This document shows positions 8,583 through 15,477 of a stretch of 45,483 bases of DNA, piece by piece (positions within the stretch are counted from its first letter, which is position 1; each line of letters starts with the position of its first letter). This DNA comes from Candidatus Rokuibacteriota bacterium (lineage in GTDB: Bacteria; Methylomirabilota; Methylomirabilia; Rokubacteriales; CSP1-6). The notes below the pieces were generated by a model. The model did not search any database. It saw only the letters and a program-made list of their open reading frames with translations, and was not told the origin of the DNA. Made by a program: the position numbers and the translations under genes. The DNA is taken from positions 1 through 45,483 of the forward strand of contig QHSL01000099.1 of assembly GCA_003220435.1 (NCBI GenBank). The letters are read 5' to 3'.

Positions 8583-9620
8583 GTGACCGCCGCGCTGCCG
8601 CCGATCCCGACGCACGTGATGGGGAGCCACGGCTTTCCCGGATGGTTCTGGACCGCGCTGGACAAGATCAAGGCTGGGGAGTACGGCCAGACGGACGTGC
8701 GGGAGACCTTCGACGACGCAACTCAGCTCGCGATCCGCGACCAGGAGCGCGCGGGCGTGGACGTGATCTGCGACGGCGAGATGCGGCGCTTCTTCTTCGT
8801 GCAGACCTTTTACGCGAAGATGGAGGGCCTCGAGCCGATCGAGCCGCTCCGCAAGACCGGCCTCTACGCGTACGACTCGGCGCCGCGCTACCGCCCGCTC
8901 CAGCGCGTCAAGGTGCCGCATGGCCTCGGCGTCCTCGAGGAGTTCCGGTATCTGAAGACGCACACCGATCGGCCCGTGAAGGCCACGTGCCCCGGGCCGG
9001 TGACGCTGTCGATCCACGTCCAGCTCCGCCCCGGCGACGTCTACGCCAACGACCGGCTCGCCCTCTGCTGGGACTTCGTGCCCGCCATCAACACGGAGCT
9101 GCGCGCCCTCGTCGAGGCCGGCGCCGACTACATCCAGATCGACGAGCCGTCGGCCGCCATCGTGCCGGGACAGATCGGCGAGTACGTGAAGATGTTCAAC
9201 GCGTGCGTGCAGGGGGTGCGTGCGCGGATCGCTTACCACGTGTGCTTCGGCAACCTCATGTCGCGGCCGCGCGGCAAGCGGTCGTATCGCTGGATGTTCC
9301 CGGCGCTGCTCGACACGAAGTGCCAGCAGTTCGTGTTCGAGTACGCGAACCGCGAGATGGCCGAGATCGAGCACTGGAAGGAGATCGGCGTCGACCGCGA
9401 CATCGCCTGCGGCGTCGTCGACGTGAAGTCGTTCTACATGGAGATGCCGGAAGACGTCGCCGAGCGGCTGGCGCTCTGCGCGAAGTACATTCCCGTCGAG
9501 CGCCTCTCCGCGGTGCCGGACTGCGGCTTCTTCCCGGTGCCGCGCTGGGTCGCCGTCGAGAAGCTCAAGCGGCTGGTGGCGGGCACGAAGCTCGCGCGCC
9601 GGCGGCTGGGCCTCGTATGA
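8583..9620 (+). CDS. MetE C-terminal-domain-like zinc protein 1 (cobalamin-independent methionine synthase family)
   Basis: 345 residues from GTG 8583, corresponding to the catalytic (C-terminal) half of MetE only. The zinc ligands of the family are all present: H219 and C221 in YHVCFGN, E253 in FEYANRE and C314 in VPDCGF. The acidic DEP motif is at 187-189. Relatives transfer a methyl group to a thiol, or split and join thioethers as in the epoxyalkane:coenzyme M transferases. Without the N-terminal MetE domain, true methionine synthesis from folylpolyglutamate is doubtful. It sits between an acyl-CoA dehydrogenase and a Liv importer, so a catabolic demethylation or thiol-transfer step is inferred. 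A second homologue closes the operon at 14452. Confidence 0.85.
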   Translation: MTAALPPIPTHVMGSHGFPGWFWTALDKIKAGEYGQTDVRETFDDATQLAIRDQERAGVDVICDGEMRRFFFVQTFYAKMEGLEPIEPLRKTGLYAYDSAPRYRPLQRVKVPHGLGVLEEFRYLKTHTDRPVKATCPGPVTLSIHVQLRPGDVYANDRLALCWDFVPAINTELRALVEAGADYIQIDEPSAAIVPGQIGEYVKMFNACVQGVRARIAYHVCFGNLMSRPRGKRSYRWMFPALLDTKCQQFVFEYANREMAEIEHWKEIGVDRDIACGVVDVKSFYMEMPEDVAERLALCAKYIPVERLSAVPDCGFFPVPRWVAVEKLKRLVAGTKLARRRLGLV

Positions 9621-9621
9621 A

Positions 9622-9720
9622 AGCGCGTGATAGGAGGACTCTCACGATGCGGCACCCATCTCAGGCCACCCCCGAACCGCTCCGTGCTCACGGCACCCGC
9701 TACAATAACCCCCGCTACAA
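9622..9720 (+). repeat. Duplicated livK leader/N-terminus segment, copy 1
   Basis: About 95 nt covering the Shine-Dalgarno region (AGGAGG), the start ATG 9647 and the first 24 or so codons of livK. It recurs at 14321-14430 with only scattered differences, including the ribosome site and ATG. The 3' part is a 15-nt tandem unit (tac-aac-aac-ccc type, coding RYNxP). Copy 1 has two units and copy 2 has three. Confidence 0.8.
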
Positions 9721-10975
9721 CCGCCGACAGTTCCTCGGGCTCACCGGCGCCGCCGCCGCGTCGGCCGCGCTGCGCTTCGACGCCGCTCCGGCGCTTGCCC
9801 AGGCCGAGCCCGTGAAGCTCGGCGTCCTCGCCATCCGCGCCGGCATCGCGGCGCCGGTGGGCGCCGCCGGGCTCCGCGCCACCGAGTGGTGGGCGGAGCG
9901 CGTGAACAAGTCAGGCGGCATCCTCGGGCGCCCCGTTCAGCTCGTCGTCGAGGAGGAGTCGAACCCGAAGGACACCGTGGAGCGCTATCGCAAGCTCGTC
10001 CTCCAGGACAAAGTCGAGGCGGTGCTCGGCGGGATCTCCACCGGCGTGACGCTCGCCCTCGGCCCGGTGGCCGAGGACCTCGCGACGCCGTGGCTCTCGT
10101 GGGACGGCACGACCCAGAAGGGCGTCGAGGAGACGATGCCCAACCCCAAATGGGCGTTCAAGAGCGTCGACAACGAGGTCGAGGCGATCGTCGCCGGCAT
10201 CCTCACGCCGAAGTACTTCAAGGGCATCAAGACCGTCGCCGGTATCGGCAACGACTACTCCTATGGCCACGACTGCTGGGAGTCGTACCAGGCGGTGCTC
10301 AAGCGCTACGTCCCCGACGTGAAGTTCGTGCTCGAGCTGTTCCCCAAGCTCGGCGTCACCGACTTCACCTCGCATATCGCGGCCATCCAGCAGTCGAAGG
10401 CGGATATGTTGATGTGCTCGTTCTGGTCCGGCGACGCGACGATCATCATGAAGCAGGCCGCCGCCGTCGGCCTGTTCAAGACGATGAAGGGTGTCTTCAC
10501 GACCGCCGGCGGCGTCCACGACTCGCTGAAGAAGGAGTTCACGCCGGAGGGGTTGCTGCTCGGCTACAACACGATGTACTTCGACGATCCCAAGGGCAGC
10601 CCGCTCCTCAAGCAGTTCGTCCGCGAGTACAAGGCGAAGCACAACGAGTACCCCCCGTACGAGTGCGACCACGCCTTCTTCAACGCCGAGTCGTACAAGG
10701 CCGCGGTCGAGAAGGCCGCGCGCAGCGGCCGGCAGTGGCCCGAGAAGGCGGCCGTGGCCAAGGCGCTCGAGGGCATCGAGGTCGAGTCGCTCTCCGGCCG
10801 GCGGAGCTGGCGCGAGGACCACGTCCAGATGTGCAACTTCTACCAGGGGATCACGACGCACAAGAACAGCTACGACTTCGTGACCATCAGCCCGGTCGAG
10901 GTCGTATCCACCAAACAGGCGATGAAGCCCGCGGGGGCGAAGCTGTTCGACTGGATCAACGGCTGGAAGATCTAG
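9647..10975 (+). CDS. livK: Liv-type ABC transporter substrate-binding protein (Tat-exported)
   Basis: 442 residues. A twin-arginine signal RRQFLG starts at residue 26, followed by an Ala-rich hydrophobic core and a cleavage-like APALAQ near 47-52. The mature part begins with VKLGVLAIRAG and has the periplasmic-binding-protein type 1 fold (ESNPKDTVERYRKL; GIGNDYSYGHDCWE). It captures a small amino acid, amide or organic acid outside the membrane for LivHMGF. The 25-residue extension before the twin arginines is unusual. It is the segment duplicated at 14348, and contains the RYN repeats. A good ribosome site, GGAGGA, precedes ATG 9647. Confidence 0.88.
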   Translation: MRHPSQATPEPLRAHGTRYNNPRYNRRQFLGLTGAAAASAALRFDAAPALAQAEPVKLGVLAIRAGIAAPVGAAGLRATEWWAERVNKSGGILGRPVQLVVEEESNPKDTVERYRKLVLQDKVEAVLGGISTGVTLALGPVAEDLATPWLSWDGTTQKGVEETMPNPKWAFKSVDNEVEAIVAGILTPKYFKGIKTVAGIGNDYSYGHDCWESYQAVLKRYVPDVKFVLELFPKLGVTDFTSHIAAIQQSKADMLMCSFWSGDATIIMKQAAAVGLFKTMKGVFTTAGGVHDSLKKEFTPEGLLLGYNTMYFDDPKGSPLLKQFVREYKAKHNEYPPYECDHAFFNAESYKAAVEKAARSGRQWPEKAAVAKALEGIEVESLSGRRSWREDHVQMCNFYQGITTHKNSYDFVTISPVEVVSTKQAMKPAGAKLFDWINGWKI

Positions 10976-10983
10976 TCAGCGTC

Positions 10984-11847
10984 CTGCTGAGCGGCGTTTT
11001 CCACGCCTCGATCCTGTTCCTCGTCGCCGCCGGCTTGCAGGTCGTCTTCGGCGTGCAGAAGATCTTCAACCTCGCCTGCGGGTCGTTCTACGCGCTCGGC
11101 GCGTACGTCGGCGTCTCGGCCGTCGGGTGGTACGCCGCCGCCGGCGGGCCGCCCGCGCTGTTCATCGTCCCGCTGGCCTTGGCCGGGCTCGCGGTGGGCG
11201 CCGTGGGCGTGGTCATCGAACGCGGGCTGCTCAGCTTCGTCTACGAGCGCGACGAGACGTTCCAGCTCCTGCTGACGTTCGCGGTCGTCCTCATGATGGA
11301 GGACGCGATCCGCCTCACCTGGGGCACCGCGCCGCGCTCGACCGCCGGGCTCTATCTGGCCTACGGGCAGACGCAGCTGCTCGGCGCGACCGTGCCCGTC
11401 TACAACCTGGTCGTCATCGCGGCCAGCCTCGCGATCGCCCTCGCGATTGGCTGGCTGCTCACCCGCACCACCTTCGGGCGGATCGTGCGCGCCACCGCCG
11501 ACAACCGCGAGATGGCGGCGGCCCTCGGCGTCGACCTCCGGCGGGTCTACGCCAAGGTGTTCACGCTGGGCACCGCGCTCGGCACGCTCGGCGGCGCGCT
11601 GGTCATTCCAGCGACCGCGGCCATGAGCGAGATGGGCATCGAGCTGATCGTCGAGGCGTTCGCGGTGGTGGTGATCGGCGGGCTCGGCTCGATGCGGGGC
11701 GCCTTCGTCGGCGCCCTGGTGGTCGGCATCCTCCGCTCGTTCGCGATCTCGATCTATCCGGAGCTCGAGATGCTCCTGATCTACCTGATCGTGATCGCGG
11801 TGCTCGTGCTGCGGCCGCGCGGTCTCTTCGGCGGAGCCGGGGTGTGA
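10984..11847 (+). CDS. livH: Liv-type ABC transporter permease LivH
   Basis: About 287 residues of hydrophobic inner-membrane protein with the family segments FGVQKIFNLACGSFYALGAY near the N-terminus and VVIGGLGSMRGAFVGALVVG near the C-terminus. It pairs with LivM to form the translocation pore. The start is odd: between the livK stop (10973-10975) and the first conserved residues there is no in-frame ATG, GTG or TTG. I placed it at CTG 10984; CTG 10963 or even GTC 10975 are alternatives. Translation may depend on coupling to livK. The 3' end overlaps livM by GTGA. Confidence 0.85.
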   Translation: MLSGVFHASILFLVAAGLQVVFGVQKIFNLACGSFYALGAYVGVSAVGWYAAAGGPPALFIVPLALAGLAVGAVGVVIERGLLSFVYERDETFQLLLTFAVVLMMEDAIRLTWGTAPRSTAGLYLAYGQTQLLGATVPVYNLVVIAASLAIALAIGWLLTRTTFGRIVRATADNREMAAALGVDLRRVYAKVFTLGTALGTLGGALVIPATAAMSEMGIELIVEAFAVVVIGGLGSMRGAFVGALVVGILRSFAISIYPELEMLLIYLIVIAVLVLRPRGLFGGAGV

Positions 11848-12839
11848 CGGGGCCGCTGGTGGTGGCGGCAGCCGTGGTCGCCATCGCCCTGGCGCCGCTC
11901 GTCGCCTCAACCTATCACGTGCTGCTCATGCTGCCGTTCATGGCCTACGCCGTCGTCTTGCTCGGGCTGAATTTGTTGCTCGGCTACGCCGGGCTGGTCT
12001 CGTTCGGCCACGCGCTGTTCATCGGGATCGGCGCCTACACCGGCGCGTTCCTCACGAGCCACTTCAAGATCCGCTCGCTGGAGGTGATCCTGATCGCGGC
12101 GGCGGCCCTCGGCGCCCTCGTGGCGGCGCCGGTCGGCGCGCTCTGCGTACGCTACGTGAAGATCTACTTCGGCATGCTCACGCTCGCCTTCGGCATGGTC
12201 TTCTACACGTTCGTCCTCAAGTTCTACCGGCTGACCGGCGGCGACGAGGGGACGCCGTTCCTGCGGCCGTCGCTTCTCGGACGGAGCCTCGAGGCGATGC
12301 CGAAGACCGACTATCTGGTCGGCCCGTACTACTACTACTCGTTGGGCGTGGTGGTCGTCGCCACGCTCTGCATGTGGCGCATCGTCCACTCGCCGTTCGG
12401 CCTGTGCCTGAAGACGATCCGCGACAACCCGGCCAAGGCCGAGACGCTCGGCATCGGCGTCACTCGCTTCCGCTTCCACGCGTTCGTGATCTCCGCGGTC
12501 TACGCTGCCGTGGGCGGCGCGCTGCTGGGTCCGCCGATCGGGAACGTCGATCCGACCCTCGCCTACTGGACCCATTCGGGGAACATCGTCTTCATGACGT
12601 TGCTAGGCGGGTTCACCAGCTTCTTCGGGCCCGTCGTGGGCGCCTTCGTCTTCATCTACCTGCAGAACTGGGTGATGTCGGTCGTCCCGTACTGGCGGCT
12701 GATCTTCGGCGCCATCCTCGCCGCCATCGTCATCTTCGCGCCGGGCGGGCTCCTGGGGCTCGTCAGGCCCGGGCGCGCCGCGGTGCGCGCCGCAGGCCGT
12801 CGCGGGGCCGGGGCCCCGCCGGCCGAGTCGCGGCCATGA
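11844..12839 (+). CDS. livM: Liv-type ABC transporter permease LivM
   Basis: 331 residues from GTG 11844. Multiple membrane segments and the LivM signatures LNLLLGYAGLVSFGHALFIG and TLLGGFTSFFGPVVGAFVF are present. Second permease of the importer. The last 18 or so codons pass through the second copy of the 43-nt hairpin repeat (12785-12827), giving an Ala/Gly/Arg-rich tail (AAGRRGAGAPPAESRP) that is probably not part of the conserved fold. The stop overlaps livG by ATGA. Confidence 0.9.
   Translation: MTGPLVVAAAVVAIALAPLVASTYHVLLMLPFMAYAVVLLGLNLLLGYAGLVSFGHALFIGIGAYTGAFLTSHFKIRSLEVILIAAAALGALVAAPVGALCVRYVKIYFGMLTLAFGMVFYTFVLKFYRLTGGDEGTPFLRPSLLGRSLEAMPKTDYLVGPYYYYSLGVVVVATLCMWRIVHSPFGLCLKTIRDNPAKAETLGIGVTRFRFHAFVISAVYAAVGGALLGPPIGNVDPTLAYWTHSGNIVFMTLLGGFTSFFGPVVGAFVFIYLQNWVMSVVPYWRLIFGAILAAIVIFAPGGLLGLVRPGRAAVRAAGRRGAGAPPAESRP
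12785..12827. repeat. REP-like hairpin repeat, copy 2
   Basis: Second copy of the 43-nt repeat at 4287-4329, here inside the end of livM and 8 bp before the livG ATG. The hairpin at 12795-12824 keeps all 12 pairs and the TC bulge; the only loop change is TGGG to CGGG. It could act as a 3'-end stabiliser or attenuate livG expression. Confidence 0.75.
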
Positions 12840-13594
12840 TCCTGGTCGCCGAGGGGCTCCGGAAGCTCTACGGGGAATTCTGCGCCCTCGACGGCGTGAG
12901 CCTCGGCGTCGGCGCCGGCGAGTTCGTCTCGATCATCGGCCCCAACGGCGCCGGCAAGTCCACGCTGATCAACATCCTCACCGGGCTCACACCGCCGAGC
13001 GCCGGCACGGTGCGCTTCAAAGAGCGCGAGATCCACGGGCTCGGGCCCGTCGGGCTCGCGCGGCTCGGCATGGCGCGCTCGTTCCAGCTGGTCCACATCT
13101 TCCCGGACCTCACGGTGCTCGAGACCCTGCAGGCCGCGGTCGTCGCGCGGCTCGGGCGCGGCACCCGGCTGTTCGCGTCGCTCGCGGGTGACCGCGACGT
13201 GCAGCGGGAGGCGCTCGAGGTCGCCGAGCTGTTCCGCCTGAGCGACAAGCGTGGGGCCCTTGCCCGACACCTGCCGCAGGGCGACAAGAAGCTGCTCGAC
13301 GTCGCGTCGGCATTCGCCCTGCGGCCCGAGATCATCCTGCTCGACGAGCCGACGTCGGGCGTGAGCACCGCGGACAAGACGGCGGTCATGGAGACGCTGG
13401 TGGAGGCGTCGAAGCGAATCGGGCTCCAGGCCATCCTCCAGGTCGAGCACGACATGGACATCGTCTTCGCCTACTCCGATCGCATCATCGCGCTCCACCA
13501 GGGCAAGGTTCTGGCCGACGGCCCACCGTCGGCGATCCAGGCGGACCGGTACCTGATCGACACCGTGATCGGCCGGCGGGCGAGGACGCACTGA
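12836..13594 (+). CDS. livG: Liv-type ABC transporter ATPase LivG
   Basis: 252 residues. Walker A is GPNGAGKS (35-42), Walker B LLDEP ends with D169-E170 and the switch His is H204 in VEHDMD. The signature loop reads LPQGDKK (145-151) instead of the more usual LSYGxQR, a clear departure although the essential glycine is kept. It energises import with LivF. The start ATG 12836 overlaps the livM stop. Confidence 0.9.
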   Translation: MILVAEGLRKLYGEFCALDGVSLGVGAGEFVSIIGPNGAGKSTLINILTGLTPPSAGTVRFKEREIHGLGPVGLARLGMARSFQLVHIFPDLTVLETLQAAVVARLGRGTRLFASLAGDRDVQREALEVAELFRLSDKRGALARHLPQGDKKLLDVASAFALRPEIILLDEPTSGVSTADKTAVMETLVEASKRIGLQAILQVEHDMDIVFAYSDRIIALHQGKVLADGPPSAIQADRYLIDTVIGRRARTH

Positions 13595-13604
13595 GCGCCG
13601 GGCG

Positions 13605-14312
13605 ATGCTGACCGTTCACGAAATCGACGTCTTCATCCAGGCGAGCCACATCCTGAGGCGCGTCTCGCTCGAGGTCGGCGCGCGCGAGGTCGTCTGTCTC
13701 GTGGGCCGGAACGGCGCCGGAAAGTCGACGACCCTCAGGACCATCATGGGCTACCTCCGCCCGCGGTCCGGACGCGTGGAGCTTCGCGGACAACCCATCC
13801 AGGGACGCCGCACCCACGAAATCGCGGCGCTCGGCCTCGGCTGGGCTCCCGAGGACAGCGGGATCTTCACCGACCTGACGGTCGCCGAGAACATCGAGAT
13901 CGCGACGTGGACGCGACGGGGCGGCCGCCCGGCCGCCGAGCGGTTGGATCTGGCCTACGGCGTTTTCCCGGTGCTCCGCAGGTACATGACGCGCAAGGGC
14001 CCGGAGATGAGCGGTGGTGAACGCAAGATGCTCTCGATCGCGCGAGCCCTGGCGCTGGATCCGGAGATGCTGCTGCTCGACGAGCCGTTCGAGGGGCTCT
14101 CCCCAACGATCATTCCGTCGGTGAGCGACGGCATCGCTCAGATCACCCGACTTGGCCACGCCGTCCTGCTCGCCGAGTCCAACATCCACCACGTCCCCGA
14201 GTACACGACGCGGCTCTACGTTATCGAGCGCGGCGAGATCGTCTTCGCCGGCACACTCGACGACGCCTGGCGCGACGCAACCGTCTTGCGCATAATCGGT
14301 GGCACCCGATGA
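13605..14312 (+). CDS. livF: Liv-type ABC transporter ATPase LivF
   Basis: 235 residues, normal for LivF. Walker A is GRNGAGKS (34-41), the signature is MSGGE (135-139) and Walker B LLDEP has D159-E160. The switch region reads LAESN where LivF proteins usually have LVEQN. It forms the heterodimeric ATPase with the LivG encoded 10 bp upstream. It is the last transporter gene of this operon before the mini-ORF and MetE-like protein 2. Confidence 0.9.
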   Translation: MLTVHEIDVFIQASHILRRVSLEVGAREVVCLVGRNGAGKSTTLRTIMGYLRPRSGRVELRGQPIQGRRTHEIAALGLGWAPEDSGIFTDLTVAENIEIATWTRRGGRPAAERLDLAYGVFPVLRRYMTRKGPEMSGGERKMLSIARALALDPEMLLLDEPFEGLSPTIIPSVSDGIAQITRLGHAVLLAESNIHHVPEYTTRLYVIERGEIVFAGTLDDAWRDATVLRIIGGTR

Positions 14313-14320
14313 ATCACCAG

Positions 14321-14430
14321 AGCGCGCATGATTGGAGGATCCTCACGATGCGGCGCCTGTCTCAGGCCACCCCCGACCCGCTCCGTGCTCACGGCACCCG
14401 CTACAACAAACCCCGCTACAACAACCCCGG
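14321..14430 (+). repeat. Duplicated livK leader/N-terminus segment, copy 2
   Basis: Counterpart of 9622-9720: the same ribosome site (TTGGAGGA), the same ATG context (CTCACGATG) and the same stretch coding SQATPxPLRAHGTRYN. The 15-nt unit coding [RG]YN[KN]P is present three times. After it the sequence diverges, and the livK twin-arginine signal and mature domain are absent. Confidence 0.8.
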
Positions 14431-14455
14431 CTACAACAACCCCAGCCGCCGATGA
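14348..14455 (+). CDS. 35-residue mini-ORF derived from the livK N-terminus, coupled to the next gene
   Basis: ATG 14348 has a strong GGAGGA ribosome site. The encoded peptide starts MRRLSQATPDPLRAHGTRYN and ends in YNNP-type repeats and RR before TGA 14453-14455. It matches the first 24 or so residues of LivK (from 9647) but stops before any export signal. Its stop overlaps the ATG of the MetE-like gene (ATGA at 14452-14455), which has no ribosome site of its own except within this ORF. It is most simply a leader that delivers ribosomes to the MetE-like gene, made from a duplicated livK 5' end. Whether the peptide itself does anything is unknown. Confidence 0.55.
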   Translation: MRRLSQATPDPLRAHGTRYNKPRYNNPGYNNPSRR

Positions 14456-15477
14456 CACTTCCTCTCATTCCCAGCTCGGTCATCGGCTCGCACGGAAAGC
14501 CCGGCTGGTGGTTCGCCGCCGTCAAAGCGTCGGAGGCGGGCGAGTTCGGCCCCGGTGACCTCGAGGAGATGTTCGACGATGCGGCCGACACCGCCATCCG
14601 CGACATGGAGAGGGCGGGCATCGACATCGTCACCGACGGCGAGGTGCGTCGCCTCGACGGCTACGTCGACTCGTACTACGCGATCATCAAGGGCATCGAG
14701 CCGTTGCCGATCCGGCGCAAGGCGGGCCCCTGGGGCTACGACCAGCAGACGCGCTACGAGGCGGTCGGCCGCATCGAGACGCCGCCCGGCGGGCTGGGGA
14801 TCGTCAGGGAGTTCACGTACCTCAAGACGCACACGACGCGGCACACCAAGGCGACCTGCGCCGGGCCGCTCACGTTCGGCTCGCGGATCCATCCGGGCAA
14901 GCGCTACAAGGGCGTGGTCGACGTCGCCGAGCGGTTCGCCGAAGTCATCAACGAGGAGTTGCGCGGGCTCGTGGCGGCCGGCGCCGACTTCATCCAGCTG
15001 GACGAGCCGGCGCGCGGAAACGTCTCCGGCGAGGAAATGGCCCGGCTCTTCAACCTGGCCACCGACGGCGTCAAAGCGAGGCTCGCGTTTCACATCTGCT
15101 TCGGCAACCGCTTCGGCCGCTCGCGCTTCGACCGAACCTACGCGCCGTACTTCCCCGGCGTGCTCAAGGCGCGCGCCGAGCAGCTTGTTCTCGAGTTCAC
15201 CAGCCGCGAGCTCAGCGAGCTCGACCTGTGGAAGCGCTACGGCGAGGGCCGCGAGCTGGGCGCGGGCGTGGTGGACGTGAAGGGGTTCAGCCAGGACACG
15301 CCCGAGGACGTGGCCGGACGGATCCGCCGCGTGCTCCAGGTGTGTCCGGCCGAGCGGTTGACCGTGAATCCCGACTGCGGTTTCGGCTGGTCGCCGCGCT
15401 ACATGTGCAACCAGAAGCTCACGGCCCTCGCCGCCGGCGCGGCGCTCGTGCGGAAGGAGCTCACCGGCAGGCGCTAG
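14452..15477 (+). CDS. MetE C-terminal-domain-like zinc protein 2
   Basis: 341 residues from ATG 14452. It is a diverged paralogue of the protein at 8583, with the same architecture and all zinc ligands: H214 and C216 in FHICFGN, E248 in LEFTSRE and C309 in NPDCGFG. DEPA is at 184-187. Both copies share the N-terminal GSHGxPGW motif and the central YLKTHT segment. As with copy 1, methyl transfer or thioether chemistry is a family inference and the substrate is unknown. It closes the operon and its TAG overlaps the convergent MBL gene by 4 bp. Confidence 0.85.
   Translation: MTLPLIPSSVIGSHGKPGWWFAAVKASEAGEFGPGDLEEMFDDAADTAIRDMERAGIDIVTDGEVRRLDGYVDSYYAIIKGIEPLPIRRKAGPWGYDQQTRYEAVGRIETPPGGLGIVREFTYLKTHTTRHTKATCAGPLTFGSRIHPGKRYKGVVDVAERFAEVINEELRGLVAAGADFIQLDEPARGNVSGEEMARLFNLATDGVKARLAFHICFGNRFGRSRFDRTYAPYFPGVLKARAEQLVLEFTSRELSELDLWKRYGEGRELGAGVVDVKGFSQDTPEDVAGRIRRVLQVCPAERLTVNPDCGFGWSPRYMCNQKLTALAAGAALVRKELTGRR

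Follow-up and report, generated by a model that had tools for sequence, protein, structure and literature searches.

A dispersed repeat of Rokubacteria at operon stop/start junctions, with copies in livK and ahead of a metE-like gene

Operons are thought to retain overlaps between the stop codon of one gene and the start codon of the next because these couple translation. Termination-reinitiation at ATGA overlaps has been described for a number of pairs (PMC6728339, PMC10666635), and the coupling was almost nil at a spacing of about 20 nt in the H. volcanii and E. coli pairs tested (PMC10666635). The locus reported here has relatives with the typical 4-nt overlap at their empty junctions, and a mini-ORF recreates such an overlap before metE; unlike in the known ATGA coupled pairs, however, the overlap is here created by an inserted repeat, and the coupling is predicted from sequence. 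The nearest known kind of repeat in behaviour are the Rickettsia palindromic elements (RPE; Ogata et al. 2000, 2002), short dispersed repeats that occur in frame in unrelated protein genes as well as outside genes (PMC10969869). Our element likewise invades proteins in frame, namely UvrA (absent or present in congeners), an ABC transporter, NuoE, MutS and LivK, but it has no palindrome and no conserved fold, it measures about 66 nt instead of about 150, it favours stop/start junctions and tandem arrays, and it belongs to a distant phylum. Because the palindrome test fails, it is not filed as an RPE. It also shows that the in-frame invasion of proteins by repeats extends beyond Rickettsia. The TAACTGA repeats of the Beggiatoaceae are, like the element, tandem, oriented to and situated just upstream of start codons, and associated with genes of mixed function including some within ribosomal-protein operons, whereas their units are 7 nt instead of 66 nt long and a duplication of stop/start overlaps has not been reported for them (PMC4679880). 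ERIC, BOX, RUP and REP sequences and MITEs share with the element that they are small, dispersed, modular or tandem and without coding capacity or an autonomous gene (PMC10969869, PMC3049150); in contrast to MITEs and REP sequences, no terminal inverted repeats were seen in the element and no RAYT/Y1 gene in this genome. In the part of the literature covered by our search, no account of the repeat in Rokubacteria was found.

The window analysed is a stretch of 45,483 nt from a soil bacterium of Candidatus Rokuibacteriota (assembly GCA_003220435.1, contig QHSL01000099.1), and the features described in this paragraph lie on its + strand. Comparison of the window with itself aligned 9623-9721 with 14324-14422 in a gapless match of 99 nt with 90% identity; a 24-nt pattern taken out of the shared segment matched the window at exactly these two places where 0.01 matches were expected. 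This confirms the initial annotation in that about 95 nt of the livK 5' end recur 4.7 kb downstream. The first site is a livK-like gene (9647-10975; gene call) encoding a Peripla_BP_6 substrate-binding protein (Pfam PF13458, 2e-55) with a Tat-type signal peptide (RRQFLGLTG, with RRQFL at residues 26-30); sequence and gene call place its start region at 9633-9649, with the Shine-Dalgarno sequence GGAGG at 9633-9637 and the ATG at 9647. Element copy 1 (9659-9721; model match 9650-9707, and alignment) comprises the core TCTCAGG...CGCTACAAT and a second 15-nt 3' unit, and is read in frame in livK (SQATPEPLRAHGTRYNNPRYN) ahead of the twin-arginine motif. At the second site, the gene of a livF-like ATPase (13605-14312; Pfam PF00005) ends with the TGA 14310-14312 within CCGATGA 14306-14312, the 5' copy of a duplicated overlap, and the MetE-like (Meth_synt_2) gene (14452-15477; Pfam PF01717, 4.3e-19, gene call) starts with the ATGA of the 3' copy, CCGATGA 14449-14455. 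Comparison with the empty sites of the congeners G048, G050 and G053 defines an insert of 139 nt between the two ATGA copies (14313-14451). It contains element copy 2 (14360-14437; model match 14351-14408, repeat families D1 and D4), consisting of the core and tandem 15-nt 3' units with three RYNxP-type repeats. A 35-codon mini-ORF (14348-14455), recognised from the sequence and from a homologue in G051, runs through the element from the ATG at 14348 behind GGAGG 14334-14338. It encodes the 35-residue peptide MRRLSQATPDPLRAHGTRYNKPRYNNPGYNNPSRR, and its TGA (14453-14455) overlaps the metE ATG at 14452 in a 4-nt ATGA, an overlap type also seen in G051. Hence, the annotated mini-ORF with a stop overlapping the MetE-like start is present as described, and so is the 15-nt tandem unit with two copies in livK (RYNNP, RYN) and three in the mini-ORF (RYNKP, RYNNP, GYNNP).

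The core of both copies recurs throughout the genome. When the own genome (95.5% complete; 5.44 Mb in 147 contigs) was searched at the DNA level with the 132-nt metE copy, 45 matches at E<=10 came up, of which about 37 had E<0.1, and 80 element units were found with a sequence-only model built from 89 copies. The unit of about 66 nt, CGGAGCC-N6/7-GC...CTCAGGCCACCCTCGGTCCAAGCCGGCCTCACGGCACCCGCTACAA, is often tandem at that period; its modular 5' side, RACCGGGCGTG(T)CGGAGCC, is repeated in its own right, and the 15-nt 3' unit is tandem in several copies. Within the alignment of copies CAGGCCACCC is near-invariant, the apparent core conservation being inflated by the recruitment of loci L047-L095 with the core pattern. 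A structured RNA was rejected, with zero pairs predicted by RNAalifold on the 89 copies and no matching Rfam family. Terminal inverted repeats were likewise not found in the consensus, the ends of which (CGGAGCC... and ...GCTACAA) are not complementary, nor as pairs in the alignment. Tandem arrays of 4 to 8 units spaced by about 63-66 nt occur at G000:C123:29696-30137, C30:15787-16115 and C103:35058-35363 (L031, L016). Upstream of the core at L024, L035, L051, L060, L084 and L090 there is another unit, shorter and likewise tandem, which is found around GACCGGGCGTGTCGGAGCC or GGTTGTCCGCGGACCGGAGCC and multiplies independently.

An exact 30-nt pattern scan of 84,980 species returned 49 stretches, all of them in MAGs of Candidatus Rokubacteria / Rokuibacteriota. 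Within the phylum, 42 of 95 genomes carry the element, essentially those of one family: it is present in all nine genomes of the genus and in many genera of the family, with single weak matches at most elsewhere; counts in this survey have a ceiling near 53. The initial annotation had raised the occurrence of the segment ahead of other genes in related genomes; the core does stand there at unrelated genes, among the named matches in Rokubacteria only. Regarding a mobiliser, the Y1 transposase (RAYT, PF01797) had no match in this 95.5% complete genome while control genomes were positive, and neither IS110 nor reverse transcriptase genes were found in it; REP/RAYT, IS110 and reverse-transcriptase systems were rejected as mobilisers because these genes are absent from this genome. 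We consider it highly probable that the two window copies are members of a dispersed, apparently non-autonomous repeat of Rokubacteria, together with the account of gene junctions developed below.

The element is dispersed, variably present at orthologous sites and oriented with the downstream gene. With genes called by a simple codon-usage gene finder trained on these loci, 46 of 55 intergenic clusters lay on the strand of the downstream gene, and the start codon abutted the element exactly in 37 of the 51 cases with a nearby start. The upstream gene ended in ATGA in 22 of 35 cases, compared with 51 of 373 background ends (P=5e-10), and the downstream gene began with ATGA in 35 of 51, compared with 105 of 368 in the background (P=4e-8); these counts include orthologous copies, which are not independent in the statistics. 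Shine-Dalgarno sequences before abutting starts (17/37) were not clearly commoner than in the background (135/363), and a Shine-Dalgarno-led mini-ORF was rejected as a general trait of the family, since only in a minority of abutting cases does such an ORF stop at the overlap. The downstream genes, named from their sequences without family search, are functionally mixed (fabD, mutL, nuoA/E/H, rplW, aroF, era, purD, ctaB, nusB, cofE and others), for which reason a regulon was rejected. Copies at L035 and L038 adjoin tRNA genes, the L038 copy filling the gap between two tRNAs antisense to both. An AcuC-like deacetylase and an epimerase-like protein take their start and initial codons (MAPVT) from variant copies with CATGGCACCCGTTACA (L022, L059, L083).

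The element can also be read as protein. No stop codon interrupts its three forward frames in 78, 79 and 85 of the 89 copies, respectively, compared with about 60 in shuffles, and all three frames are found in use: frame 1 is the reading in livK and the mini-ORF, frame 2 occurs within UvrA, where three species have it at the same position, between the two domains of an ABC transporter and as an N-terminal extension of NuoE, and frame 3 forms a C-terminal extension of a MutS-like protein, the stop of which is the TGA within the ATGA where mutL starts. The nuoE junction belongs to coding sequence in this genome, but to noncoding sequence in L049/G051. For genome annotation this means that odd N- and C-termini (RPPSVQAGLTAPAT, SGHPRSKPASRHPLQ, SQATPEPLRAHGTRYN) become recognisable as element sequence. 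The uvrA gene of G055 (L156) holds an element remnant, GAACCGGAGCCGCGAGTGCCTCCAGCAGGCCACCCTCGGCTACC, as if part had been deleted.

Sixteen sites were compared across nine congeners, located with one chimeric query in MAGs that are incomplete. Presence of the element varied from 7/8 at mutL, rplW and aroF over 6/8 at ctaB and fabD and 6/9 at uvrA to 4/9 at nuoH and purD, 3/7 at acuC and 1/5 at lutC. Where a junction is empty, the stop of the upstream gene and the start usually form a 4-nt overlap (RTGA), as in nuoA (4 genomes), lutC (4), purD (4/5), era (2), rplW, cofE and nuoH (3). Filled junctions typically carry two ATGA, one on either side, where an empty junction carries a single copy, and this pattern is expected equally from a duplication of the overlap on insertion and from selection for keeping both codons; the aroF, nusB and acuC junctions show no ATGA duplication. 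The ATGA enrichment could reflect such selection rather than targeting, and an old insertion followed by loss could explain part of the presence/absence pattern, since many sites are common to most congeners. A more far-reaching reading would be a mobile DNA with a new targeting rule, which enters operons at their 4-nt stop/start overlaps, duplicates the ATGA, leaves both genes intact, works by a non-palindromic mechanism, and would thereby rewire coupling and add protein ends in tens of operons per genome; we regard this reading as rather doubtful.

At livK, the element is absent from G048, G049, G050, G052 and G053, where the N-terminus reads MTRHDTSRRQFL, MTHDHSSRRQFL or MRTSRRQFL, and present in G051, G054 and this genome, in each of which it stands in frame ahead of the twin arginines. 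The livF stop and metE start form one overlapping CGATGA in G048, G050 and G053. The nearest relative, G051, has a related insert with a homologous mini-ORF of 30 codons that again ends in a stop/start overlap with metE, whereas the metE site of G054 has the plain form, with the 3' end of the element at the ATG and without a mini-ORF. The suggestion of the initial annotation that a recent duplication supplied a ribosome-loading site can be separated into two parts. The element was not required to supply such a site, because Shine-Dalgarno-like starts already exist at livK and metE in most empty congeners, including several empty livK sites. The duplication is in part supported: about 35 nt with the Shine-Dalgarno sequence and ATG, upstream of the core, are common to both window copies and lie outside the family consensus. 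The livK and metE cores of the window are identical at 49 of 52 positions, while compared with the same locus in G051 the identity is 50/52 for metE and 47/52 for livK. This flank and the core identities suggest that local copying or conversion between livK and metE, in either direction, likely took place before the split of the G000 and G051 lineages.

The shared flank speaks for an incidental segmental copy from livK to metE, in the absence of any repeat family, and for these 35 nt it may hold. As a full explanation it is refuted and hardly credible, because the core recurs all over the genome, at dozens of unrelated genes, and stands at unrelated genes in related genomes too, and because G054 has cores at both sites with a livK flank that resembles the empty livK sites; the repeat is not a single copy of the livK 5' end. 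The initial annotation had alternatively proposed a regulatory leader peptide, in which an amino acid would be sensed through the mini-ORF, or through one peptide shared by livK and metE, and both genes would be controlled by attenuation or arrest. The Shine-Dalgarno start of the mini-ORF, its overlap with metE and its intactness in two species agree with this idea, but the only Met of MRRLSQATPDPLRAHGTRYNKPRYNNPGYNNPSRR is the start residue, its branched-chain residues are few, it has no run of either kind, and the peptide is distinguished between the species by in-frame indels. Moreover, in livK the segment forms the N-terminus of the protein itself and no separate peptide, copies elsewhere use different frames or none, open frames are intrinsic to the element family, and an ORF that is led by a Shine-Dalgarno sequence and stops at the overlap is no general trait of it, so that we regard a leader peptide as very improbable.

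The element could also be a regulatory signal, in RNA or DNA, that acts on translation or transcription of the following genes and is retained for this role in the manner of a promoter or protein-binding leader. The strong orientation bias, the exact abutment of start codons, the near-invariant core sequence and the presence of copies at the same genes in several species speak for such a site, yet there is no conserved structure, the target genes are functionally mixed and include the operon-internal rplW, the presence varies within one genus, copies stand inside coding sequences too, and part of the core conservation results from the ascertainment mentioned above. TACAAT as promoter was rejected, because some copies, for example at rplW, are operon-internal and the mutL start lies inside TACAATG, which thus is not the mutL -10 box. 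A regulatory site appears improbable.

In the favoured account of a dispersed repeat at gene junctions, we infer that copies persist where both neighbouring genes survive and little harm is done. This would follow from the near absence of stops in the unit and from its 3' end (CAATGA) or the duplicated ATGA, either of which provides both a stop and a start. The in-frame core of livK, placed between the start region and the Tat motif, would only lengthen the n-region of the signal peptide. At livF/metE, the 139-nt insert parts the formerly overlapping codons and should have abolished termination-reinitiation and uncoupled metE from livF, because coupling is almost nil already at about 20 nt in the tested pairs (PMC10666635). 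The Shine-Dalgarno-led 35-codon ORF ends in the new ATGA overlap, by which metE may have become coupled to the mini-ORF instead of livF. We give this coupling about an even chance; the metE copy of G054 without a mini-ORF speaks against it. Across species of one genus, the repeat separates many stop/start overlaps, including those of the nuo, rpl and mutSL operons, and it supplies new starts, stops and protein segments, which makes it a natural experiment in coupling broken and restored. Furthermore, the liv-type ABC operon of the window is flanked by two MetE-like (Meth_synt_2) genes, at 8583-9620 and 14452-15477, with about 46% identity, and the pair is found at the same spacing in several congeners.
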